In this document: positions 364 to 40,682 of the stretch, one piece after another
Numbering within the stretch: the stretch's first letter is position 1
Layout of the letters: each line of letters starts with the position of its first letter
DNA from: a virus
Direction: 5' to 3' (one strand)
Length of the DNA stretch: 40,848 nt
IMG/VR virus record: IMGVR_UViG_3300045454_000021
Coordinates: 1-40,848 of that record
Made by a program: the position numbers and the translations under genes
The notes under the pieces: generated by a model
What the model saw: only the letters and a program-made list of their open reading frames with translations
What the model was told of the DNA's origin: nothing
Databases searched by the model: none

Positions 364-965
364 TGAAGCTGACCAAGGAGCAGGAGAAGACGCTCGCGAG
401 CATTCGCGAGGCGGACTACGAGTACCGCACACTCCGCGAAGCTGCCGAGCGCGAGATCCGCGATCTCGTCGAGAAGCGGGTCGAGGCGGCCAAGGCTCGG
501 CGCGACGTGCTCGTGTATCAGGCACGGCAGGGCAAGAACCCCATCCCCGTGCTCCGCATAGCGCGTGAAGGGCTGAGTACCACCGCCACGATCACCGCCT
601 ACCAGGCCATCGAGAACGGCAAGCTCTACGCCGAGCCGGCTGCCCCCAAGGGCGTCGAGGCGTCGGGCGACAGCTCCACCCCTGCTGAGTTCGTGCGCAC
701 GGGCCCCACCTCCTTCCGGGTCACGCCGAGCGTCAGCGAAGTGGCCACGATCCTCGGCATGATCGGTCTCGACAAGGCCGACTATGAGGCGAGTGAGCAG
801 CTGCAGTCGGCCGAGTTTGAGCTGTCGAATGGCGCGCTCGTGAGCGTCACGCCTGCTTTCGACCCGCAGACAGGTCGGCATCCGGTCGTCGCGCTGGTCC
901 AGGCCCCCTCGTCGCAGTATGGCCAGTCCGTGCGCAAGTGGGCCGAGGAGAACATCGCCGCATGA
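363..965 (+). CDS. Coiled-coil phage protein, 200 aa
   Basis: The start ATG overlaps the upstream TAA (TAATG) and the stop TGA overlaps the helicase ATG. Residues 1-60 are Glu/Lys/Arg-rich with heptad-like spacing, including repeated EAAKAR- and REAAEREI-type segments, so a helical coiled coil is likely. The C-terminal half looks globular. It is hypothetical. Its position directly before the helicase, with translational coupling, suggests a replication-associated partner, but no catalytic motif is visible. Confidence 0.85.
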   Translation: MKLTKEQEKTLASIREADYEYRTLREAAEREIRDLVEKRVEAAKARRDVLVYQARQGKNPIPVLRIAREGLSTTATITAYQAIENGKLYAEPAAPKGVEASGDSSTPAEFVRTGPTSFRVTPSVSEVATILGMIGLDKADYEASEQLQSAEFELSNGALVSVTPAFDPQTGRHPVVALVQAPSSQYGQSVRKWAEENIAA

Positions 966-3619
966 GTGCTGCCGTGAAGTTCCTCCCGTGTGACTGGTCG
1001 CTCTCCGACGAAGAGGCGAAGCTAGCTGGCCGCATCACGGTCAGCCAGGAGGTCGCCATCCTTGCTGCGCTCGAGCAAATCGGCACCTCGGGAGGCTTCA
1101 TCATCGGGGACGACCCCGGATTCGGCAAGACTGGGGTGGGTGCCGAGATTATAGTCCGAGGCGGCTTCGAGCGCGTTCTACTAATCGCCCTCGGCGACAC
1201 CCACAAGCAGTGGGATGAGCGCATTCGCCTGCAGTCAGACGGTCGGCTCGGCTGCCGCATCATGAACGGCAGCAAGGCGGGACGCGCCGAGTACGAGGCC
1301 TTCATGAAGCACGAGCCCGGGATCTTCATCGCCACGGCAGACTTCCTGCGTGAGAAGGACTGGGAGTCGGTGATCCAGCGCGACGACATGGGCCGCCCGA
1401 TCTACGACGTCGACAAGAAGACCGGCCTAATCAAGCTCAAGCCACGCAAGGAGGGGGAGATCGGCCCAGCCGAGTTCCCCATCTTCAAGACCAAGAGCGA
1501 GCACAAAGGCGTCTACCGCAAGTTCGCGCGCAAGCCGCTGGATGCTGTCGTTTTTGACGAGTGTTTTGTTGCGGGGACTTTGGTAGATACCCCACGCGGG
1601 CCGAAGGCGATTGAATCTCTCGTTGCTGGGGATGAGGTATACGGTTACAATCACGAGTCCGGGCGAGTCGTGGTTACGACAGTTGCCGGATCAATGCGCA
1701 GGATGAGTCAAGAGGTTCTTCCGTGTGGCGCAACGGCTAATCATCCGTTTTATGTTGATGGTGTTGGCTATACGCCAGCTGCCGACCTGACCAGAGAGGA
1801 TCGCCTACTTGAGCGACACGGTGAAGGCGTGCGAGCAGTGCGGGCAGGAGTACGTGCCATATCGGGGAAACCAATTGCAGAGGTTCTGCGGCCGGAGATG
1901 CTCGAACACTTGGAGAGCGAAGAACCGTCCGGATCTCATGGCGACCCTTCGGGCCGGGAGAGCAAGGTGGGCATCTTCACCAGATGGGAAGCGCTCGATA
2001 TCGGAGACCTCGAGGCGCAACTGGGATCAAGCTGCCCGCGAAGCCCAATCTCGACGCATGTCGGAGGCGAACCCATCGAGAAGTCCAGAGGTGGTCGAGC
2101 GTCAGAAGGCATCTCGACTCGCATCTGGGGCCACATACGCGCACCTTTCGGGCGGAAACGGTCGGGGCATGACGGTTCCACAGGAGCAGCTACTCTCCCT
2201 GCTGGGGGAGGGGTGGAAGCCGGAATTCATTGTGCCAACCCGGTCTCGCAGGGGCCTCGGGGAGCTGCCTACTCACTACAAGATCGACCTAGCGTTGCCC
2301 GAAATTTTGCTAGCAGTCGAGTGCGACGGGGAGTCTCACAATTCGAAGACCGGGAAGAGCAGAGATGTGAGGAAGGACACGTTTCTCACATCTCAGGGGT
2401 GGACAGTCTTGCGATTCTCCAACCGCGAGATATTGGGCGATACGAAGCAGTGCGTCGAGAAAATCTTCAGAGTCGCCCTGAGGCTGTCTACAACATCGAG
2501 ACAGGGACATCGAACTACTTCGTAGATGGGGTACTGGTTCACAATTGCCAGGCGATCGCGAACCGCAAGTCGGCCACGAGGCGCACAATCTACTCGATCA
2601 AGGCGCGGCTTCGCGGCGCACTCTCGGGAACGTGGTTCCTGAACGCGCTCGAGAACATGTGGTCGGTGTCGAGGTGGGTGTGGCCAGGAGAAAACCCTGA
2701 GACGGGTCAGCCGTATGTTGAGACCAACCATGATGTGTGGAAGTCGCGCTATCTACTCTCGGAGGTCGTCTCGAGCGCCAAGGGGCGTGTGGTCAAGGTG
2801 GGGCGCCAGGAGCGGGTGCTTACCCGAGTAGTTGGCGAACGAGTTCAGGGTGAGTTCGTTGGCACGCTGCCCTGCTACATTCGTCGTGAAATGCCGCAGG
2901 TTCCCGATCCGGCAGTTATCCGCCTGCCGGCAACTCCGCAGCAGGCAGCACAGATGGAGGAGCTGCAGAAGGATCTGGTGACCTGGGTTCTGGACTGGCA
3001 GGGCAACGAGATCCCGCTCGTCGTCGACCTGCCGCCTATCCTTCGCATGCGCTTGCGCCAGGTGACGATCGCAGAGCTCTCGCTGGACTACGACGAAGAT
3101 GGTTCCGAGCGGGTGTACTTCCGTGATGAGGCGTCGTCGGCCAAGCTCGGCCCCATTCGCTCGATCATCGAGGGGCCCTGGGCTGGCCAGCCCGTACTGA
3201 TCTACACCGACTCCAAGATCGGTGCGCACTTCATCGCGGGTCGGATGCAGCGTGCCGGCGTTGACGCGCGCACCTGGACCGGCGACCTCAGTCGCCCCGA
3301 GCGCGAGAAGCTCAAGCAGGCCTTCCTGGCGGGGGAGTTCGACTACCTCGTGGTCACCGTGCAGTCGTTCGGGACCGGCATCGACGGGTTCCAGCGTCGG
3401 TGCAACAAGGTCATCTGGGTCTCGGAGGCCGACGGCAACCCGGCGCTGAACCGTCAGGCGATCGCGCGCATTTTCCGCCCCGGAATGACCGAGGAAAACG
3501 GCGGCTTTGCCCACGTGAAGCTCGTCATCGAAGACAGCGTCGACGAGATCTCGATGCAACAGCTCATCAACAAGGCCTGGGCAATTCGCGCGGCCATGAA
3601 CGGAGGAATTGCAGCATGA
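962..3619 (+). CDS. SNF2/DEAD-like helicase precursor containing an intein
   Basis: An 885-aa precursor. The ATG at 962 overlaps the upstream stop (ATGA) and is preferred over an in-frame upstream codon. The N-extein has a Walker A motif (GDDPGFGKT, residues 49-57) and motif II (VVFDE, to residue 200). An intein occupies residues 201-528. The C-extein resumes at Cys529 and carries motif III (LSGTW), a second RecA-like domain (VLIYTDSK, then VVTVQSFGTGID) and a motif VI-like arginine finger (NRQAIARIFRPG, near residue 835). After splicing the enzyme would be about 557 aa, a normal size for a phage SF2 helicase in replication or recombination. The stop overlaps a downstream ATG. The family is confident; the exact role is inferred. 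Confidence 0.95.
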   Translation: MSAAVKFLPCDWSLSDEEAKLAGRITVSQEVAILAALEQIGTSGGFIIGDDPGFGKTGVGAEIIVRGGFERVLLIALGDTHKQWDERIRLQSDGRLGCRIMNGSKAGRAEYEAFMKHEPGIFIATADFLREKDWESVIQRDDMGRPIYDVDKKTGLIKLKPRKEGEIGPAEFPIFKTKSEHKGVYRKFARKPLDAVVFDECFVAGTLVDTPRGPKAIESLVAGDEVYGYNHESGRVVVTTVAGSMRRMSQEVLPCGATANHPFYVDGVGYTPAADLTREDRLLERHGEGVRAVRAGVRAISGKPIAEVLRPEMLEHLESEEPSGSHGDPSGRESKVGIFTRWEALDIGDLEAQLGSSCPRSPISTHVGGEPIEKSRGGRASEGISTRIWGHIRAPFGRKRSGHDGSTGAATLPAGGGVEAGIHCANPVSQGPRGAAYSLQDRPSVARNFASSRVRRGVSQFEDREEQRCEEGHVSHISGVDSLAILQPRDIGRYEAVRRENLQSRPEAVYNIETGTSNYFVDGVLVHNCQAIANRKSATRRTIYSIKARLRGALSGTWFLNALENMWSVSRWVWPGENPETGQPYVETNHDVWKSRYLLSEVVSSAKGRVVKVGRQERVLTRVVGERVQGEFVGTLPCYIRREMPQVPDPAVIRLPATPQQAAQMEELQKDLVTWVLDWQGNEIPLVVDLPPILRMRLRQVTIAELSLDYDEDGSERVYFRDEASSAKLGPIRSIIEGPWAGQPVLIYTDSKIGAHFIAGRMQRAGVDARTWTGDLSRPEREKLKQAFLAGEFDYLVVTVQSFGTGIDGFQRRCNKVIWVSEADGNPALNRQAIARIFRPGMTEENGGFAHVKLVIEDSVDEISMQQLINKAWAIRAAMNGGIAA
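1562..2545 (+). other. Intein (328 codons) in helicase motif II
   Basis: It begins with Cys201 and block A (CFVAGTLVDTPRGPKAIESL). A block B-like segment follows (GATANHPFYVDG, with the Thr and His of the TxxH motif). It ends with a block F/G segment (VYNIETGTSNYFVDGVLVHN) just before Cys529. First residue Cys, last residues His-Asn and a +1 Cys are the class 1 splicing set. Insertion is between the Glu and Cys of the DEC sequence in the helicase ATPase motif. Between the splicing blocks the intein frame shows no LAGLIDADG or HNH domain. It reads as low-information sequence because this DNA encodes a homing endonuclease in another frame. Base composition is visibly lower in GC than the flanking exteins, consistent with recent acquisition. 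Confidence 0.95.
1809..2525 (+). CDS. Intein-nested homing endonuclease, different frame (Zn finger + Vsr/DUF559-like)
   Basis: A 238-aa ORF lying wholly inside the intein but in another reading frame. The TTG start at 1809 follows a Shine-Dalgarno (GAGAGGA, 1794-1800) by 8 nt. Residues 8-31 form a Cys4 zinc finger (C8, C11, C27, C31). Residues 50-118 are basic with NUMOD3-like helical repeats (SETSRRNWDQ, then SRRMSEANPSRS). Residues 125-222 match the Vsr/DUF559 nuclease fold: KIDLAL, then VECDGESH, then DVRKD and a GWTVLRFSN strand. Candidate catalytic residues are D160, E171, D173, H177 and D186. It would cut intein-less helicase alleles to drive intein homing. The last 13 codons (from 2486) overlap the intein block F sequence, so that short stretch is constrained in both frames. 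Confidence 0.86.
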   Translation: MSDTVKACEQCGQEYVPYRGNQLQRFCGRRCSNTWRAKNRPDLMATLRAGRARWASSPDGKRSISETSRRNWDQAAREAQSRRMSEANPSRSPEVVERQKASRLASGATYAHLSGGNGRGMTVPQEQLLSLLGEGWKPEFIVPTRSRRGLGELPTHYKIDLALPEILLAVECDGESHNSKTGKSRDVRKDTFLTSQGWTVLRFSNREILGDTKQCVEKIFRVALRLSTTSRQGHRTTS

Positions 3620-3663
3620 CCACCTACACCAACCAACCGAACCGTACCCAGGAGGAGAAATGA
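3616..3663 (+). CDS. 15-aa micro-ORF at helicase 3' end
   Basis: ATGA overlap with the helicase stop at one end and ATGA overlap with the next gene at the other. The peptide ends NQPNRTQEEK, which is the translation of the repeated RBS-bearing sequence. It is probably a coupling leader or a by-product of the repeat, not a functional protein. Confidence 0.3.
   Translation: MTTYTNQPNRTQEEK
3640..3656 (+). repeat. Start-associated repeat, copy 1
   Basis: AACCGTACCCAGGAGGA is identical at four sites in the window, each 3-4 nt before a start codon and supplying its Shine-Dalgarno (AGGAGGA). This copy serves the gene starting at 3660. Confidence 0.85.
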
Positions 3664-3998
3664 GCAACGGAATCGACATGATCGCAGCCGAGCGCGAGCG
3701 ACAGATCACCGAAGAGGGGTACACCGCTGAGCACGATCGGGACCATGCTGCGGAACTTGCCTGGGCCGCTCGCTGCTACGTCGAAAACACGGCTATGGGA
3801 CTGACGGGCCAGCCGACAGTCACGCCTGGCAAGGACTGGCGTGCGGAGGACGGGCCAGATTTCCAGGAGTTCCCGTGGCCGTGGCATAGGGCCTACTGGA
3901 AGCCGACCGGAGACCCGGTGCGTGACCTGACGAAGGCGGGCGCGCTCATCGCTGCCGCGATCGACTCGCTCACAGCTCAAGAGGATGGGGGCCATTGA
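3660..3998 (+). CDS. Conserved phage protein, 112 aa
   Basis: The ATG at 3660 sits 3 nt after the AGGAGGA of the start-associated repeat. The N-terminal pattern AAERERQITEEGYTAEHD, followed by an Ala-rich helix and a Trp/Pro-rich centre (EFPWPWHRAYWKP), recalls a small protein common in phages and prophages of many hosts. I know of no established function for it. It may be a helical nucleotide-metabolism accessory, but that is a guess. The stop overlaps the next ATG (TGATG). Confidence 0.85.
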   Translation: MSNGIDMIAAERERQITEEGYTAEHDRDHAAELAWAARCYVENTAMGLTGQPTVTPGKDWRAEDGPDFQEFPWPWHRAYWKPTGDPVRDLTKAGALIAAAIDSLTAQEDGGH

Positions 3999-10248: not shown

Positions 10249-12873
10249 GTGACAGGGTATAAAGACGTCGCGCTCCTCTATCGAGAGCGCGGCTGGGCGC
10301 CGATCCCAGCACATGGGAAGCGCCCAGTACCCGCCGGGGCTACGGGCAAGAACGGCTCTGTCACCGACGAGAAGATCGCCGACTGGATGGCCAACGGGTT
10401 CAGATTCCGGGAGCCCGGTGGCGAGAACTGGGTAACCCAGGATCCCGCCACGGCGAACCTCGCGCTCCGCCATGAGGGCACTGTCGGCATCGACGTCGAC
10501 AACTACGGCTCGAAGGAGGGGGCAGCGCAGCTCCGCGCGCTCGAGGCGAAGCTGGGGCCGCTGCCAGCGACCCCGTCATCAACCTCGCGCGGAGCCGACT
10601 CTGAGAGTCGCCAGCACGTCTATGCGCTCCGCGAGCCCGTCACTCTCGTCGGCAAGGCCGCGCCTGACATCGACGTCATCCAGTCGCATCACAGATACAC
10701 CCTGGCCTGGCCCAGCCTGAACCCGGATGCCGACAACGCTCCCTACGTCTGGTATGACGCCGACGGTGAGCCTATGGACGGCCCGCCGCACGTCGACGAC
10801 CTCGAGTATCTCCCCGAGGCCTGGCTCGAGTACCTCCAAGCCGCCGAGGCCGAATATCAGCACCAAAGCGAGCAGTGGGAAGGTGACATCCCCCACGTCG
10901 CCTCGGCTGCCGAAGAGCGCAAGCTTCGCACGATCATCGCGCGACTGGATGGCCTGCCTGATGTGTGGCACGAGGGCGCAGGGTGGCACGACACCGTATT
11001 CTCGTCGGCGTGCTGGCTCTGGCGGATCGCTCGATCGAACGCCTATGCGCTGACTGTCGATCAGGCGGCACAGATCCTTCTTGACCACACGCCGACGTAC
11101 CCGCAATGGGGCACCGACAAGATCATCGAGCAGTGGGAATCAGCCGAGAAGTCAACCGCCGGCCAGTTCGAAGAGCCCCCGATCGAGACCCGTCCACCCC
11201 TCTTGGAGTGGCATGGTTTCCCGCTAGACCGATCGTTCCCCCTGGTCGACGGCGACCTCTTTGCTGGGGTCTGGGGTCGCCGCCCGGAGAAGGATGACTC
11301 GGGTTCCTTGTGGGCGCACCGCCAGAAACTTCTCACCACCCTGATCCGAGGCGGATTCACTGACCAGGAGGCCGCGACAATCGTCTGGCACGCCGCCGCG
11401 AGCTCAGGCGTCTCCACCGTCACGTTCGGCGGCATCGAGTTCGACAACTCGGACGCGCGGGCAATCGACGAGCTTGAGCTGTGGCGCGAGGTCGACCAAG
11501 CAAAGCTCGCCGTGGCCAAGGAGCAAGGGTCGACCGTCGAGGTGGCTCCGATAGACGAGCGCCCCACCTACGAGGTGGTCAAGCGGATCGAGTTCCTCAC
11601 TCCCGAGGAGCGCGCGCGAGTCGAGTCGCGCGAGTGCCAATGGTGGGGGACGAGGTTCATCGACTGGGCCCAGATGACGTTCGACACCGTCAATTTGCCC
11701 TACTACCGCATGAACCGCTGGACGGTCCTCTCTATCATCTTCGCCCCCAAGGCCGTGCTCCCGCGCCCGGGCGGCAATGACCGGCCGCTGAACCTGTATC
11801 AGGCCACCGTCGGCACGACCGCCTCGGGAAAGACCGAAGCGCTCCGCGTGGTGAAGCACATCAACCGTGCATACTTCCTCCTGGCCGACACCCCTGACAT
11901 CGGCGGCAACCACACGCCCGAGTCCCTCGTCGAGACCTTGATCGCCAAGGACGGCGAAGCGACGTGGTTCCACGTCGACGAGGCGCACACGAAGATCCAG
12001 CAGTGGAAGAAGCCCCAGGGTCCCTACTCGGAGATGCCGGGCGTGATCACGGATGTCTACGACGGCGACGTCGGCGCTGTGTATCGAGCGACAAAGAAGG
12101 ACATCTCGGGCAAGTCCGCGAAGGCGTTCATGACAGCACACCTCATGGGCACCCCGCAAGGCATGGCCGACGTAATGAGCCCCGAGGATTGGGAGTCAGG
12201 TTTTCTGAACCGCTTCGTCTGGGCGATTGGGGATCTGCCGACCGAAGACGACCGGGCCGACGACTACCTCGACGACAGCGAGATCGACGAGGACACTCCA
12301 GAGGTCGCATCGGGCATGGCGATGTACCAGCAGTGGGCGAGCGAGTTCGGCGCCGCGGTCCAGAAGATCTCGCGCCCGGACAACAAGCCCAACCGCATGA
12401 AGATTCCTCGATCCGTGATCGAGAGGCATCGCCAATTCAAGCTTGCTCTCAATGCTGTCGCCGCTCAGAACGTTGCGTACACGGAGCGGCTACGCCCCAC
12501 CTTCCGCCGACTCCGAGAGACCATCATGAGGTGCGCCGCCCTTGTTGCGCTCTCGGCCGGCCGCATCGACATCACGATGGATGACCTACTCATCGCCATC
12601 GAGCAGGCGGAGGAGTGGGTCGCCAACGTCATCACGATGGTTGAGGCCACTGATGAGTCGCTCCGAACGCGCCAGGTGAACGCGATCGAGAAGGCCATCA
12701 TCGCCAATGGTGGCGCGATGGCGCTGGCGGCGATTCACCGGCTGCCGAGATTCAAGAACCGAAGGCGTGAAGTCGAGGACTTCATCGCTGAACTGGTCGC
12801 GCAAGGTCGCGTCGACCGGGGCCCCGTGTCGGGCATAGACACAGTCCGTCTGAAGGGAGTGACCGTTGGCTGA
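10249..12873 (+). CDS. Primase-polymerase/helicase replication protein, 874 aa
   Basis: GTG start about 11 nt after GGAAGGAG. Residues 1-200 match the bifunctional primase-polymerase (prim-pol) domain: an N-terminal WAPIPAHGKRPVP segment, catalytic GIDVDNY (DxD) near residue 82, and a SRQHVYALR segment supplying the Ser/His-type motif. Residues 500-780 form an SF3/DUF3987-like ATPase with Walker A VGTTASGKTEA (about 520-530) and Walker B FHVDEAH (about 575). The C-terminus is a winged-helix-like tail. It probably primes and unwinds phage DNA at the origin. The stop lies 5 nt inside the next gene. Confidence 0.9.
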   Translation: MTGYKDVALLYRERGWAPIPAHGKRPVPAGATGKNGSVTDEKIADWMANGFRFREPGGENWVTQDPATANLALRHEGTVGIDVDNYGSKEGAAQLRALEAKLGPLPATPSSTSRGADSESRQHVYALREPVTLVGKAAPDIDVIQSHHRYTLAWPSLNPDADNAPYVWYDADGEPMDGPPHVDDLEYLPEAWLEYLQAAEAEYQHQSEQWEGDIPHVASAAEERKLRTIIARLDGLPDVWHEGAGWHDTVFSSACWLWRIARSNAYALTVDQAAQILLDHTPTYPQWGTDKIIEQWESAEKSTAGQFEEPPIETRPPLLEWHGFPLDRSFPLVDGDLFAGVWGRRPEKDDSGSLWAHRQKLLTTLIRGGFTDQEAATIVWHAAASSGVSTVTFGGIEFDNSDARAIDELELWREVDQAKLAVAKEQGSTVEVAPIDERPTYEVVKRIEFLTPEERARVESRECQWWGTRFIDWAQMTFDTVNLPYYRMNRWTVLSIIFAPKAVLPRPGGNDRPLNLYQATVGTTASGKTEALRVVKHINRAYFLLADTPDIGGNHTPESLVETLIAKDGEATWFHVDEAHTKIQQWKKPQGPYSEMPGVITDVYDGDVGAVYRATKKDISGKSAKAFMTAHLMGTPQGMADVMSPEDWESGFLNRFVWAIGDLPTEDDRADDYLDDSEIDEDTPEVASGMAMYQQWASEFGAAVQKISRPDNKPNRMKIPRSVIERHRQFKLALNAVAAQNVAYTERLRPTFRRLRETIMRCAALVALSAGRIDITMDDLLIAIEQAEEWVANVITMVEATDESLRTRQVNAIEKAIIANGGAMALAAIHRLPRFKNRRREVEDFIAELVAQGRVDRGPVSGIDTVRLKGVTVG

Positions 12874-27103: not shown

Positions 27104-27990
27104 GGCCCGACCTCCTTGAATGTCGCGGCGTAGCCTACCTGCCCACCTCCAGCCCCGCTGTACTTGATCAGGGTTGGGGGGGCGACAAAGCGGCTGCCGG
27201 CATGGCCCTCACCGGGCAGCCAGGGCCCATACGCCAAGGCTCCAAGGCTCGGTTTCGATGACGAAACGAGCCGCGCGATCATGCCGGAGAGCGTCACGGA
27301 GCCCTCTCCGTCGTCAGACTTGCCCATCCAGAGTCGGACGCCCAGTGCGCCCGCAATGGCCTGGTCCGGGAGGATCGAAGTGGCGTCGTTGGCCAGCTCG
27401 GTCAGGGGTACCGGCGTGCCGACCAAGTCGGGGCCTGTCGCGGGGGCGACGAAGATGCCGCCGTCGCCAGTGGTCGAGTGGAAGGCGCCGAGGTGAAGGT
27501 TCATGCCAGGCGGTACGGGAATGAACAAGCTGTCGAGGTGGCCGGGGTAGCCCGGATCCATGCTCGAGACGTCGTAGGTGATGCTGCGAAGCGGGAGCCG
27601 GTTCGCGCGGAAGTTGTCGGTCGACCTACTCGTGACCGGAAGGAGGGTGCTGCGGACAAGCCTCGGCGCGTTGTGGTTGATCGCAAGCGTCGGGTTGGCC
27701 CAGTGCGAGGGAAGAATGTTGGTGCGGTACGACGTGGGGTCCACGAAGTAGATCAGCCCCTCGCCCCATGCTCCTTCGTAGTATCCCTGCATCAGGAGCG
27801 CCGCCTCGGGCGAGGAGGCGTTGCTCCAGGCGAAGACGTGGTTCTTGTGCGAGCCGAATGTGGGCGTGACGTACCCGCCGCCGCTGAGCAGTGTGCCGTT
27901 GGCGCCCCAGCCGATGCGACTAAGATCTGCTCCGCTCAGGGGAGTAGGAACCCACTGCATGAATTCTTCGGTTCCGAACCACATCATCAT
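27091..27990 (-). CDS. Distal tail/minor tail protein, 299 aa
   Basis: First of three consecutive ATGs; the Shine-Dalgarno GGAGG lies 3-9 nt upstream, so any may be used. A beta-rich protein follows directly after the tape measure, the position of the distal tail (Dit-like) protein in siphophages. Hydrophobic strand pairs (GLIYFVDPTSYRTNILP) and a C-terminal jelly-roll-like region support a tail-tip structural role. Confidence 0.8.
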   Translation of the reverse strand: MMMWFGTEEFMQWVPTPLSGADLSRIGWGANGTLLSGGGYVTPTFGSHKNHVFAWSNASSPEAALLMQGYYEGAWGEGLIYFVDPTSYRTNILPSHWANPTLAINHNAPRLVRSTLLPVTSRSTDNFRANRLPLRSITYDVSSMDPGYPGHLDSLFIPVPPGMNLHLGAFHSTTGDGGIFVAPATGPDLVGTPVPLTELANDATSILPDQAIAGALGVRLWMGKSDDGEGSVTLSGMIARLVSSSKPSLGALAYGPWLPGEGHAGSRFVAPPTLIKYSGAGGGQVGYAATFKEVGPWEY

Positions 27991-30900
27991 GAGCCTCCAA
28001 GGATGCCGTTGCGCACATTCACCTTGCTGACGCTTCGCGCGATGGGCTTGCCGTCGATGTAGACGTCGTTGCGAATGCCGGTGATGATCGCTTGAATCGT
28101 GGCCGGGCCAAGCTCAACGAAGGGGGGCATGCCTGAGCTGGCGGGCGCAGTCGGCATTCGGCCGGCAAGGCCAGCCTGGTGCCAGGTGTTCAGGAAGTCC
28201 TTGCCGAAGAATGCCGTCGCCTTCTTCGAAAAGACGAACTCGCCGCCGTGGACCATGCCCTTGGGTGTGTACTTGCCGCCGTCGCCGACGTAGCCGCCAG
28301 TCCAGAAGTTGCCGAAGATGCCGCGGTCCCAGTTGCGACGGAGGATCTCGAGCTGGGCGGCCGACTGGTACATGGCGACGCCGTGTTGGCGACGCATGTC
28401 CTGGAGCCACTGCACGAATAGGGCGTCAGCTGCACCGTCGCTTACTCCACCACTGATGGGGATGTTGATCCCGCCGTAGTTGCCGCCGGCAACCTTGCGT
28501 GCGGTGGCCTCGAGCTCATTGAGCGCCTGGATGGCGGGGTTGACGTTTGCCGCCACGGTGATGTTGCGCGGGACGCGCTCGATTGCCAGCGTCATGTCGT
28601 CGAACGAGGCGGCGTACTTCTCGACCTCAACTCGACTGAATCCCATCTGAGTGGCCTGGGCGATGAACTCCTGCTTGAGCTGCGCGCTCTTTGCCTGAAG
28701 CTCTTGCTGGCTTGCGCCGCTAGCGGCAAGGGCCCGGAGATACCCCTGGTAGTCGGTAACCAGGCCGAGGATCTCGGCACGGTTGGCGATCGCCGCCTCG
28801 CTGTTGCCCACGAGGGACATCGAAGCCTTGTCCTGCTCCTTCGCGAGATCCTTCTGCGTTTTCGCGATATCACTGTTGACGCCGGCGAGATCTGCGCGCA
28901 GCTCGGCGGCACGAAGCTCGTCCTTGTAGAGCTCCGCGACCGTAAGCCAGTACTCCTTGATGGAACGGTCTGCGGTGAGCTCCGCGAGCTTCTGCTCGTA
29001 GTCGGTGATCGCCTGCCGAGCGTCCTCGGATGCTTGGGCGATCTTCTGCCAGCCGGAAGTGATCGTGTCGAGGGCCTGATCGCCGCTGAAGCGGATCTCG
29101 AAGGCGCGGCTCCAGACCTTCTCGAGGTCGCTCGCGTAATCGAGAAGCGTTCGAACCTGCGCAGTGGTTCCGCCGCCACCGCCGCCGCCCCCAAGCTTGT
29201 CGTTCAAGTTCGAGAAGGAGTCGGCTCCCGCGTCGCCGGCGTGCACAAGGGCCTCGCCCGCCTTGCTAGACGTGGACCCTAGCAGCAGCGCCTGAGCCTG
29301 CAGGCCGCCGAACGCATCCACGAGGGCATTGACGCTCTTGGCCGTACCGCTGGCGAGAAACCCCGTGTCGGCGTAGTTGATGACTCGGCCACTGGCTGTC
29401 TTGCCGGCGGTGATGGCGCGCTGAATGTTGACTCCAGCGGCGATCGCTCGCTCCTCGGCTGCCGCGATGTAGTCGTAGACGGCTTGTGTTCCCTGGGCCG
29501 CCGCGATTCGCATGACGTCGTCGATCGAGACGCCCTCGCGCGCGAGAGCCGACCAGTAGTCCGTGACTTCCTTGCCGGCGCCAACGATGTTCTGGAACGC
29601 CTCGGACTGCATGAGCTGGTTGCGCATCCAGGCAAAGGTGTTCTCGCCGAGATACTGGGTGTTCGCGGAAATCGCCCCGTTGGCAGAGTCGTAGGCTCCC
29701 GGCGTAAGGCCAAGCACCTGAGCGGTGTTGGCAACCATCTGTGCGTTCTCGCTCAGGGCAGCGGAGTTCTCAGCGGCGACGGGGGTGAGCTTCACGAAGG
29801 AGTGGATCAGCTCATCATTGCCGGTGATTGCCGCCTGGAAGTAGGCGTCCCGGTCGGCAGCTAGGGCATCCGCGAGGCCAGAGGTTGACCCGAGGTAGGT
29901 GGTGAAGGCGGTCTGGGCAGACTGGCCTGACTGCTCAAATGCTGCAGCCAGAGAGCCGAGCAGCACAATGACGGCGCCGATACCGGTGGAGATGAGCGCC
30001 GTCTTGAAAACGTTGACGGCGACCGCGGTCCCACGAGCGGCAGTTCCGACCCCAAACAAGGCCGCCATGAATCCGCGCGCGCCGGTCGCCGCCGCACTCC
30101 AGCCGAGAGAGGAAATCGCCGTGCGCAGAGCAGCCATGGTGCCGATCGTCAGGGCGCCACCTGTGACCAGTAGCCCAAGTACCGCCACCACGGCAGCGCC
30201 TCCGAGCGCGAACTGCGCGAGCCACTGGCCTGCGGGCGTCTGCAGCATGAGCGACAGGGTCACGAGAATGTCGGACAAGGTGTCCAGCACATCCTTTGCG
30301 AGAGGCGCGACGGCGTCGCCGGCAGCAGCACCGAACTCGGCGAGCGAGTTGAGGAAGATCTGCCAGCGCGAGGCCAGGTCGTCGACCACCTTCGAGTACG
30401 ACGATGCGAGATAGGTCCCGTCAGCGAAGGCCTGATTGGTCTCGGCGAGTAGGCGGTTGTAGAGGTCGGTGTTGTTGGCCAGCGCGGTCATTGCACGGAC
30501 CTCGCGGGTCTCCACAATGCCGATGGAGTCGAGTGCTGCCGTGAGGTCCTGCGTCCTACTCAGCCCGTTGATGAGCGCCGAGAGGGCTCGCTGCGGCTCA
30601 GCATTCCACGATGCGGCGAACTGCTCGGCTGTCATGCCGGAGATCGCGGCGTAGTTGACGAGCGCGTCACCACCTTCGGAGACGTCTCGGCGGATCTGCT
30701 GGAATATGCGCTGCGTCGCGCCCTGGGCGGCCTCGAGACCGATGCCGAGCGATGCGTAGGTCGCCGAGAGCGCAACAACCTGATCGGCGAGCAAGCCCGT
30801 CTCGTTGCCGGCGATCGCGATCCGCTGCGAGTAGTTCAGGACGTCCTGCTCTGTCGCAACTGACGAGTTGCCCGCGTACAGGATTGCCGACCCAAGGTTG

Positions 30901-32174
30901 CGGTACTGGCTGACGGGAACCTTGAGGAGCTGTCCGATGCGACCAAAGCCCTCTGCTGTTGCGTCTGTCGCAGTGCCAGCTGTCGCCGAAAACTGGACGA
31001 CTTGCTCACTGAAGTTCGTCAGTTCGGATGAGGCGATGTTCAGCTGGGCGCCGAGCGTGGCCACGCCTGCAATGTCACCGAAAGTGGCCGGGATCTCTCT
31101 CGAGAGTCCGATTAGCTGGCTACGAAGGGACTCCGCGGCCTCTTCGCTAACGTGCGCCGTTCGCTCGACAGACGTGAAGGACGACTCATAGGAGGCGCTG
31201 GCGGCGAGAGCTGCTGCCTCTGCCGCAATAAGCGAGGCGGACATAATGCCGGCAGTAGTGGCGACGTCGTACATCGCATAGCGCATACGCGGGAGCGAGT
31301 TGGCCACTTCTTCCTGCGCGATAAGCTGCCTCGCGAGAACGCTCGTTGAGGCCTTGTATGCGACCGTGTTGGAGTTGAGCTGCCGGTCGTACTCCTCGAG
31401 TGCGCGCCTGGCGCGCTGCGACGCGGCCTCCTGAGCGATAAGCCCGGCCGCCAGAGACGTGCCGGCGGCCCGCGTTCCTGTCGGTGCGTAGCCAAGGCGC
31501 GAGTCGATACCGCCTGCGTAGAACGCTGACGCCCTCGAGGCGTTCGCGCGCATGGCGGCCTGCTGCTGCAGTTCGCGGGTGATGCGCTCTTCTTCGGACT
31601 GCAGGAGCTTCGCGTTCTGGATAGAGGTCCATTGCGCCTGGCGATCACGTTCGTCGGCCGCGGCACGAGCCTGCGCGTTGCGGTCATGCGAAGCCGCGAT
31701 CTGGTCCAGGAAGGAGAGCTGCTCCTTGAGGTCCCGGTTCTCGTCGCCGACAAGCGAACCCGATACGCCGTCGCGGTACGCCTGCACGTCGACGCGAGAT
31801 AGCGGGTTGCTCGCGGTCTGGTTGTAGCGCTGCAACCACTGATCGAAGCCCATGTCGGCGTACTGCCCGGTAGCGACCTCCTGGCGGAAAGAGCGATATG
31901 CCGCTTCGGCGTCCCGCACCCGAGCAACCAGGCGATCCCACTGGCGATCGGTGCTGCTGGTGGCGTTCTTGAGCTCATCGCCGGCCTTCGAAGCAGATCG
32001 CGATACGCCCTCGAGCTGATCGCGAAGCTTGCCGGCCGTCTTGCCGGCGCGCGCCATCTGCTGGTCAGCGAAGCCAACCTCGTCGTTGTACTTGTCTATG
32101 TCGCGAGTCGCCTGGATGGCATCAGAGATGATGCGAAGTCGGAGAGTTGCCTCCGATTCGAGATCGTCGCTCAT
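27987..32174 (-). CDS. Tape measure protein, 1395 aa
   Basis: The ATG overlaps the stop of a 17-aa leader ORF (ATGA). Coiled coils fill residues 1-300. A hydrophobic stretch near 305-330 (TTAGIMSASLIAAEAAALAA) is followed by the tape measure core. Two long membrane-like segments lie near 655-690 and 725-755 (GTGIGAVIV-type and ALGGAAVVAVLGLLV). A further coiled coil lies at 1040-1180, and the conserved C-terminal GEFVFSKKATAFFG segment at about 1350. At roughly 0.15 nm per residue this implies a tail near 200 nm. It guides tail length and DNA ejection. Confidence 0.95.
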   Translation of the reverse strand: MSDDLESEATLRLRIISDAIQATRDIDKYNDEVGFADQQMARAGKTAGKLRDQLEGVSRSASKAGDELKNATSSTDRQWDRLVARVRDAEAAYRSFRQEVATGQYADMGFDQWLQRYNQTASNPLSRVDVQAYRDGVSGSLVGDENRDLKEQLSFLDQIAASHDRNAQARAAADERDRQAQWTSIQNAKLLQSEEERITRELQQQAAMRANASRASAFYAGGIDSRLGYAPTGTRAAGTSLAAGLIAQEAASQRARRALEEYDRQLNSNTVAYKASTSVLARQLIAQEEVANSLPRMRYAMYDVATTAGIMSASLIAAEAAALAASASYESSFTSVERTAHVSEEAAESLRSQLIGLSREIPATFGDIAGVATLGAQLNIASSELTNFSEQVVQFSATAGTATDATAEGFGRIGQLLKVPVSQYRNLGSAILYAGNSSVATEQDVLNYSQRIAIAGNETGLLADQVVALSATYASLGIGLEAAQGATQRIFQQIRRDVSEGGDALVNYAAISGMTAEQFAASWNAEPQRALSALINGLSRTQDLTAALDSIGIVETREVRAMTALANNTDLYNRLLAETNQAFADGTYLASSYSKVVDDLASRWQIFLNSLAEFGAAAGDAVAPLAKDVLDTLSDILVTLSLMLQTPAGQWLAQFALGGAAVVAVLGLLVTGGALTIGTMAALRTAISSLGWSAAATGARGFMAALFGVGTAARGTAVAVNVFKTALISTGIGAVIVLLGSLAAAFEQSGQSAQTAFTTYLGSTSGLADALAADRDAYFQAAITGNDELIHSFVKLTPVAAENSAALSENAQMVANTAQVLGLTPGAYDSANGAISANTQYLGENTFAWMRNQLMQSEAFQNIVGAGKEVTDYWSALAREGVSIDDVMRIAAAQGTQAVYDYIAAAEERAIAAGVNIQRAITAGKTASGRVINYADTGFLASGTAKSVNALVDAFGGLQAQALLLGSTSSKAGEALVHAGDAGADSFSNLNDKLGGGGGGGGTTAQVRTLLDYASDLEKVWSRAFEIRFSGDQALDTITSGWQKIAQASEDARQAITDYEQKLAELTADRSIKEYWLTVAELYKDELRAAELRADLAGVNSDIAKTQKDLAKEQDKASMSLVGNSEAAIANRAEILGLVTDYQGYLRALAASGASQQELQAKSAQLKQEFIAQATQMGFSRVEVEKYAASFDDMTLAIERVPRNITVAANVNPAIQALNELEATARKVAGGNYGGINIPISGGVSDGAADALFVQWLQDMRRQHGVAMYQSAAQLEILRRNWDRGIFGNFWTGGYVGDGGKYTPKGMVHGGEFVFSKKATAFFGKDFLNTWHQAGLAGRMPTAPASSGMPPFVELGPATIQAIITGIRNDVYIDGKPIARSVSKVNVRNGILGGS

Positions 32175-39527: not shown

Positions 39528-40682
39528 GTGGCAACCATTGAGAAGTATGAAACCGGATCAGGGCAGCGATATCGCGTCCGATATCGCACGCCAGATCACA
39601 AGCAGACCTCCAAGCGCGGCTTCCGCACGAAGAAGGAAGCGGAGCTGTTCGCCGCGTCCGTCGAGATCTCGAAGGCCAAGGGTGAGTTCATCGACCGCGC
39701 GCTCGGGCTCGAGACCGTCGGCTCACTAGGCACCTCCTTCATGAAGACAAAGGAGCTGGCGCTGACCAAGAGCGCGTTCACCTCCCTCGAGGTCTCCTGG
39801 CGGCTTCGCGTCCTTCCAAGATGGGGAAGCACGCCAATCGGCGCAGTCGAGCATGGGGCGGTGCAGGATTGGGTCGACACTCTTCGGCAGACGTACGCGG
39901 CTACGACCGTGATGCGCGACTACGGCCTCTTGGTGGGGATCCTCGATCGCGCAGTCCGCGAACGCAAGATCTTGGCGCACGCCGCGCGCGGCGTTGAACT
40001 TCCCCGCCGGGAGGAGCCAGAGAAGCACTATCTCACGCACGTCCAGGTGGACATACTCGCAAGAGAAGCAGGCGAGCACGGCGCGATGATCTACACTCTC
40101 GCCTACACCGGCATGCGCTGGGGAGAGATGGCTGGCCTGAAGGCTCGGAATGTGGATCTTACGCGGGCTCGAGTGCGCGTCGTCGACAATGCGGTACAGG
40201 TTGGCGCAACATTCGACCACCGCAAGACTCCGAAGGGGCGAAAGTCCCGGGAGATACCACTCCCGGCATTCCTTGTAGCAATCCTCGCCGACAGGGTCGC
40301 AGGCATGCATGCCGAGGATCGCGTATTCAACGTCGCCGGCGAGCCGCCCAAGCGCCCGCACACGAGCCGCGGATGGCTAGCCGGGGCACTGCGGCGCGCG
40401 CGAGCGATTGACCCAGAGATGCCGTCTGTGTCACCGCACGAGCTCCGGCACACGGCGGCCTCCCTGGCTGTCTCCGCTGGAGCCAACGTGAAGGCGGTCC
40501 AGAAGATGCTCGGACACAAGTCAGCAGCCATGACGTTGGACACCTACGCCGACCTGTTCGATGATGATCTTGAGGCCGTTGCGACCGCGTTGGATCAGGC
40601 CCGATCAGCAGCGGTTGTGTCCAAAATGGGGCCAAAAGGCACACCTCAGCCGCAGCAAGATAACCTCGATGCCAGTGATTAG
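39528..40682 (+). CDS. Tyrosine integrase, 384 aa
   Basis: GTG start without a Shine-Dalgarno. The N-terminus has an arm-binding-like domain (GQRYRVRYRTPDHKQTSKRG). Residues 60-160 form the SAM-like core-binding domain. The catalytic domain has R197 (TGMRWGE), a Lys near 233 (KTPKGRKS), H304-x-x-R307 (HELRH), H330 (LGHKS) and Y340 (DTYADLF): a complete site-specific recombinase. It integrates and, with the excisionase, excises the prophage. The attachment site should lie just downstream, before or at the host gene start. Confidence 0.96.
   Translation: MATIEKYETGSGQRYRVRYRTPDHKQTSKRGFRTKKEAELFAASVEISKAKGEFIDRALGLETVGSLGTSFMKTKELALTKSAFTSLEVSWRLRVLPRWGSTPIGAVEHGAVQDWVDTLRQTYAATTVMRDYGLLVGILDRAVRERKILAHAARGVELPRREEPEKHYLTHVQVDILAREAGEHGAMIYTLAYTGMRWGEMAGLKARNVDLTRARVRVVDNAVQVGATFDHRKTPKGRKSREIPLPAFLVAILADRVAGMHAEDRVFNVAGEPPKRPHTSRGWLAGALRRARAIDPEMPSVSPHELRHTAASLAVSAGANVKAVQKMLGHKSAAMTLDTYADLFDDDLEAVATALDQARSAAVVSKMGPKGTPQPQQDNLDASD

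Follow-up and report, generated by a model that had tools for sequence, protein, structure and literature searches.

We asked how an intein in a viral helicase gene could carry its endonuclease in a reading frame other than its own. Descriptions of inteins usually distinguish two forms, one that has an in-frame endonuclease and one that has none; in conventional inteins a LAGLIDADG or HNH endonuclease normally lies in frame. The DNA analysed here, a stretch of 40,848 nucleotides from IMG/VR record IMGVR_UViG_3300045454_000021 (the window), belongs to a temperate tailed phage and encodes an integrase (39528-40682), a tape-measure protein (27987-32174) and a primase (10249-12873). The initial annotation described a helicase frame running uninterrupted from 962 to 3619 with an intein inside it, and this frame indeed contains zero internal stops and forms a single ORF. 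The helicase start overlaps the upstream gene (363-965) by 4 bases (ATGA).

All four intein blocks expected in the helicase frame were identified, namely A (CFVAGT), B (TxxH, residues 58-61), F (VYNIE) and G (VLVHN, then C). The window thus has the features by which inteins are recognised (C1 in block A, the TxxH of block B, a C-terminal HN and Cys, Ser or Thr at the +1 position), and Pfam detected Hint domains within 1562-2545 (PT-HINT, 9e-10; Hint_2, 5e-7). The insertion point is the Walker B motif of the helicase, between DE and C. In an orthologue from IMG/VR (L170), whose helicase is 71% identical over the C-extein, the site is uninterrupted and reads FARKPLDAVIFDE followed directly by CQAIAN, whereas the window reads FARKPLDAVVFDE, then the intein, then CQAIAN. 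By comparison with L170, the element is an in-frame insertion at a conserved host motif that is empty in the orthologue, as is characteristic of inteins, and because L170 reads straight through the site, the limits first given for the intein, 1562-2545, are exact to the codon. Further phage helicases, L171 and L172 among them, matched in the C-terminal part only. An intron was considered and dropped: Rfam gave no match at E values up to 1 over 900-3700, and hence no sign of a group I or group II intron there.

Does the intein frame encode anything recognisable across the nuclease? In the AlphaFold model of this frame a confident Hint fold is formed by residues 1-92 together with 306-328 (pLDDT >90 over residues 1-90 and 97-98 at the C-terminal end), and Foldseek matched the model to the NpuDnaB, NrdJ-1 and RecA inteins with probability 1.0. 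The linker of residues 93-305 is largely unstructured, with pLDDT mostly 40-65, and the loop predicted to be disordered is the same stretch that is overprinted (Table 1). No Pfam domain of its own was found in the intein frame across the nuclease, so that the earlier description of this frame as free of stops and of domains agrees with the open frame, the Pfam search and the predicted disorder.

Table 1. Features of the helicase, intein and nuclease reading frames in the window
Feature	Position	Strand	Description and basis
N-terminal extein, SF2-type phage helicase	962..1561	+	Walker A GDDPGFGKT; ends ...VVFDE of Walker B; orthology to intein-less L170
Intein N-terminal splicing segment	1562..1837	+	Residues 1-92; blocks A and B; C1, T58, H61; Pfam PT-HINT/Hint_2
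TGA stop in nuclease frame, upstream ORF limit	1788..1790	+	Sequence
Shine-Dalgarno-like AGAGAGG	1793..1799	+	9 bases before nuclease TTG
Nuclease gene, 238 aa	1809..2525	+	+1 frame relative to intein; TTG start, TAG stop
Zinc-finger-like C8-x2-C11 ... C27-x3-C31, putative DNA-binding part	1830..1901	+	Alignment; Cys pattern in consensus
Overprinted linker, intein residues 93-305	1838..2476	+	Helicase frame stop-free, predicted disordered, without Pfam domain
DUF559/Vsr-like catalytic domain, residues 156-222	2274..2474	+	D160, E171, D173, H177, D186; Pfam; 3r3p fold match
Intein C-terminal splicing segment	2477..2545	+	Residues 306-328; blocks F and G; HN end before extein C; Pfam Intein_splicing (partial)
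Nuclease stop TAG	2523..2525	+	Spelled by V-D codons of intein block G (YFVDGVLVHN)
C-terminal extein of helicase	2546..3619	+	Starts CQAIAN; Helicase_C ~3185-3484 (Pfam); phrog_62 DNA helicase 7e-40

The +1 frame is open over 1791-2525, and its 238-aa product matched DUF559 (8e-13) and MTES_1575 (1e-10) in Pfam. Residues E171, D173, H177 and D186, which are invariant or nearly so among 67-72 relatives, would on sequence grounds constitute an EDxHD motif. The AlphaFold model, built like that of the intein frame from an alignment of relatives outside the annotated phage records, has a mean pLDDT of 89, and its PDB fold matches with probability 1.0 are 3hrl (E-value 0.004) and 3r3p, the homing endonuclease I-Bth0305I (E-value 0.02, TM-score 0.66 on the target). 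In catalytic residues and predicted fold the window nuclease is therefore of the EDxHD (Vsr-like) kind. It shares the catalytic fold of I-Bth0305I, with a sequence match of just E = 0.06, and unlike that enzyme, which is encoded in a phage group I intron (RNA), it lies in an intein. The zinc-finger-like motif, the Vsr/DUF559-like domain, the Shine-Dalgarno (SD)-like motif and the TTG start that the initial annotation had assigned to this frame were all recovered. In relatives the stop codon of the nuclease occupies one of a small number of distinct positions in the DNA that encodes blocks F and G.

We then asked how common this arrangement is. A tblastn search of 50,697 phage records with the nuclease returned 42 records, and the features beneath the listed matches are labelled helicase, P-loop NTPase, coil-containing or hypothetical protein, never nuclease. 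In seven phage records (Vibrio, Pseudomonas and Corynebacterium phages) the nuclease lies unannotated in the +1 frame inside an open helicase-intein gene; NC_019457, MT104474 and NC_042354 are among the phage records that annotate the host helicase frame only. IMG/VR and GTDB genomes were also scanned with profiles, which take no account of frame, and clustering of the matches left 237 non-redundant nucleases. The IMG/VR search returned no close relatives of the window nuclease, and the best identity of any relative to it is ~44%. The titles of the genome records include Acidobacteriota, Chloroflexi (Ktedonobacter racemifer), Bacteroides, Ruminococcus, Elusimicrobia, Akkermansia, Myxococcales, Acidimicrobiales, Planctomycetota and WWE3; many of these loci are contigs of metagenome-assembled genomes (MAGs) and may be phage or prophage.

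The phase was +1 in 183/183 nucleases with adjacent intein blocks (in frame, 0; +2, 0), where 183 is a conservative round count of 180 loci, L118, L034 and one edge case, and its precise value makes no difference to the result. In the 180 loci a single open ORF runs through the N-block, the nuclease region and the C-block; two loci, L034 and L118, have both blocks and an interrupted intein frame, and three loci at contig edges have the C block only. In L034 a single TGA (L034:2997-2999) stands in the intein frame just before the nuclease and could reflect a split intein, decay or a sequence error. L079 was dropped as a split intein, as its C-block match is weak and many intein-frame stops lie on both sides, and is regarded as free-standing. 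In neither the window nor any of the 183 does the endonuclease share the frame of the splicing domain, as it does in a canonical intein.

Why is the phase always +1? In the +1 layout each intein codon takes its first base from the wobble position of a nuclease codon and its other two from positions one and two of the codon that follows, and an intein-frame stop requires a nuclease NNT before AAN, AGN or GAN. Enumerating the code, we found no amino-acid pair for which +1 nesting makes an intein-frame stop unavoidable, since an NNT codon can always be exchanged for its synonym NNC. The same enumeration for +2 nesting gave five pairs (MK, MN, MT, MI and MM) that always force a stop, and at least one of them occurs in 164 of the 180 nucleases, that of the window included (MT), for which +2 nesting is impossible without change. 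The lack of +2 cases is thus explained: of the two shifted frames, only +1 can stay open without any change to the amino acids. The code rule does not account for the lack of in-frame fusions, which may reflect history or a benefit of separate expression.

Does the family look like one of mobile inteins? C1 and H61 are invariant across 61 inteins. Among the 180 relatives C1 is present in all, HN in 165, and the +1 residue is Cys in 168 and Ser in 12, although these counts lean toward agreement since C1 and the +1 residue were located by search near the profile ends. In 162/180 inteins the insertion follows the DE of the DExx motif, and most of the others lie a few residues downstream. A position nearly fixed at one helicase motif, and divergence that seems in some part vertical, would suit a nuclease with a non-homing role, such as phage competition or helicase regulation, with the intein as its fixed host. 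We regard such a role as unlikely, because the nuclease has an EDxHD-family fold as in the homing endonuclease I-Bth0305I, the orthologous site is empty in L170, overprinted inteins occur in other hosts, e.g. the terminase large subunit (L088) and a D12 methyltransferase (L084), and free-standing copies adjoin an intein-less helicase. Free-standing copies were found in L100 (L100:2896-4961) and L066 (L066:2938-3922), where a free-standing nuclease lies directly upstream of an SF2 helicase and overlaps it; the L100 helicase is intein-less with its DESHH site intact, which suggests homing beside a target without an intein. Intein and nuclease are co-inherited to a moderate degree (Mantel 0.42, partial 0.32). 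In L264 and L269 the insertion follows LLDEAH and precedes CLTKPSQEALLK, a motif that resembles the Walker B of a clamp-loader type AAA ATPase; therefore the element may not be confined to helicases.

Where might such a nested gene come from? In a Lacinutrix MAG (L118:2193-4484) the helicase carries a split intein with the nuclease in the gap, in the same phase as in the contiguous relatives: the N-intein ends at the nuclease start, 23 intein-frame stops lie across the nuclease, and a short C-intein with the C-half of the helicase restarts after it. The nuclease tree, which is weakly supported, scatters the free-standing and split forms among the overprinted ones. It is plausible that a free-standing nuclease gene invaded a mini-intein, as the initial annotation proposed, although the tree is too weak to give the direction or to tell a single origin from several. 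The path would lead from a free gene through insertion in a mini-intein (split) to removal of the stops (contiguous), or the reverse. In two loci, an Akkermansia MAG (L109) and an IMG/VR record (L015), a LAGLIDADG-type match lies upstream in the same helicase ORF as the +1-overprinted intein, in L015 also with a Hom_end-associated Hint; conventional and overprinted architectures thus appear to coexist in one gene.

How could the nuclease be expressed from inside the helicase gene? An SD of at least 5 bases precedes an in-frame start in 42/92 relatives for the nuclease frame, compared with 7/92 and 13/92 for the other frames, and an ATG near the nuclease start was found in 175/180 for the nuclease frame versus 54 and 131 for the others. 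In the window the TTG start and partial SD are weaker than in many relatives. Alternatively, programmed +1 ribosomal frameshifting from the intein frame could yield an extein-IntN-nuclease fusion; the relative frame is always +1, as such a shift requires, and 15/92 relatives have no scored SD before any in-frame start. The genetic code, however, already explains the +1 uniformity, the nuclease frame is richer in SD sequences and ATG starts than the other frames, the window stop at 1788 leaves just ~20 bases for a shift before the nuclease start, and the free-standing relatives require no fusion, which makes frameshifting very unlikely. Internal initiation of the nuclease would be the simplest reading of these sequence signals.

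Altogether, we put at roughly 85% the probability that the phage SF2 helicase carries a mobile intein with its homing endonuclease encoded as a separate +1-frame gene in the same DNA. Translation of the helicase frame through the overlap would give the splicing domain of a mini-intein, in which ~200 residues form a disordered loop, and the intein, whose catalytic residues are intact, would splice out between DE and C of Walker B. The nuclease, separately translated from the internal ribosome site and TTG, would bind intein-less helicase alleles and cut near the Walker B codons, and repair of the cut allele would copy the intein in.

Can selection be seen on both frames? At the stop-context pyrimidine wobble sites of the 180 loci (111 kb) T was found in 0/2592, all being C, against a T share of 59% at the other sites of these genes; as these loci were defined by a single open ORF, the zero holds by construction, and the evidence is that 180/182 two-block loci qualify. 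Over these loci 1533 intein-frame stops are expected, and the third frame contains 2814. The controls showed no avoidance (0.550 vs 0.585 in relatives without an intein; 0.360 vs 0.386 in the host gene). The window alone has T in 0/17 stop-context codon pairs with 7.1 stops expected, for which the chance is ∼1e-4 by its own wobble T usage and ∼0.05 by the usage of its GC-rich host gene. Taken over all relatives, the case against chance is overwhelming. Because the window has no close nuclease relatives, omega was measured on other pairs; in these 11 close pairs omega over the overlap is 0.04-0.28 in the nuclease frame compared with 0.8-2.2 in the intein frame. The contrast indicates that the nuclease sequence is selected and the intein frame is selected just to stay open: intein-frame residues drift, with purifying selection on the nuclease frame. 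The stop avoidance over relatives and the per-frame omega accord with the original suggestion that selection keeps the splicing frame open.

Both frames might instead be functional at the residue level, with the intein-frame linker acting in splicing or regulation, and the intein alignment has apparent conservation at, e.g., positions 109, 239 and 240. Conserved nuclease codons can produce such conservation, however, and intein-frame omega of ∼1-2 in close pairs, the predicted disorder and intein lengths of 200 to 500 residues among relatives all argue against it, so that we give this reading only a very slim chance. Finally, in-frame nuclease domains being the usual intein layout, a pair of sequencing or assembly frameshifts in an ordinary intein could imitate the arrangement, but this artefact is rejected with near certainty because homologues of the 238-aa frame number in the hundreds, none of the 183 embedded in inteins is fused in frame, and both frames are open, in one and the same phase, at 180 non-redundant loci drawn from isolates, IMG/VR and MAGs.

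How does this arrangement compare with known systems? Like conventional inteins, that of the window has a Hint splicing domain and an endonuclease located between blocks B and F; unlike them, it has the endonuclease separately coded in another frame. Free-standing Vsr-like homing nucleases occur near split inteins and introns. Dassa and colleagues reportedly described, in 2009, fractured genes in which split inteins are accompanied by a gene for a Vsr-like (EDxHD) homing endonuclease. Passages of PMC12350094 and PMC3229294 cite the fractured genes of Dassa et al. 2009. The likeness lies in a nuclease of the same superfamily as a separate gene beside intein halves, and L118, with two ORFs, resembles this kind. 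The window has a single ORF, and in it and 179 relatives the intein frame is unbroken, so that cis-splicing of one protein is expected.

The ShiLan element is an out-of-frame HNH endonuclease in phage DNA methylases (Arsenault, Gosselin, Gogarten 2025, PMC11855218). Both there and in the window a homing-type endonuclease occupies a shifted frame of an insertion, the host frame is left open and its product has no recognisable domain. The ShiLan endonuclease is HNH and in the third frame (start at base 18), while that of the window is EDxHD/DUF559 and in +1; ShiLan has a methylase host and no detectable ribosome-binding site, the window a helicase host and an SD-like motif. ShiLan also lacks an intein splicing domain and its insertion is thought to be retained in the protein (PMC11855218), whereas a Hint domain is present in the host frame of the window. 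The belief that the nested, overprinted layout was undescribed therefore needs qualifying: an out-of-frame endonuclease has been published, and it was one without an intein. A passage of PMC11855218 cites, for overlapping frames, a 2025 preprint on inteins of non-canonical architecture (Gosselin, Arsenault, Gogarten; doi 10.1101/2025.01.02.630785), on actinobacteriophages by its title, which may describe some such inteins. What we expect to be new is how widespread the arrangement is, its uniform phase, the rule from the code and the connection with split inteins.

On balance we favour the view that these elements represent a third general intein architecture, in which a separate EDxHD gene is overprinted in +1 in phages and prophages of many phyla, is kept open by the purely synonymous stop avoidance that the code allows just there, and is connected, through stops gained or lost, with the split inteins of fractured genes and with nucleases that stand free next to a helicase of the same kind. 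In this widespread third form one set of bases encodes splicing in one frame and cutting in another, which leaves the two proteins free to evolve, and to be expressed, independently of each other. For the study of same-strand overprinting the family is a very large natural data set that follows a clear and testable rule, NNC before AAN, AGN or GAN, and it reveals unannotated nucleases in published phage genomes. It also points to a way by which contiguous inteins and split inteins, the parts of which are in wide use as tools, could be converted into one another.
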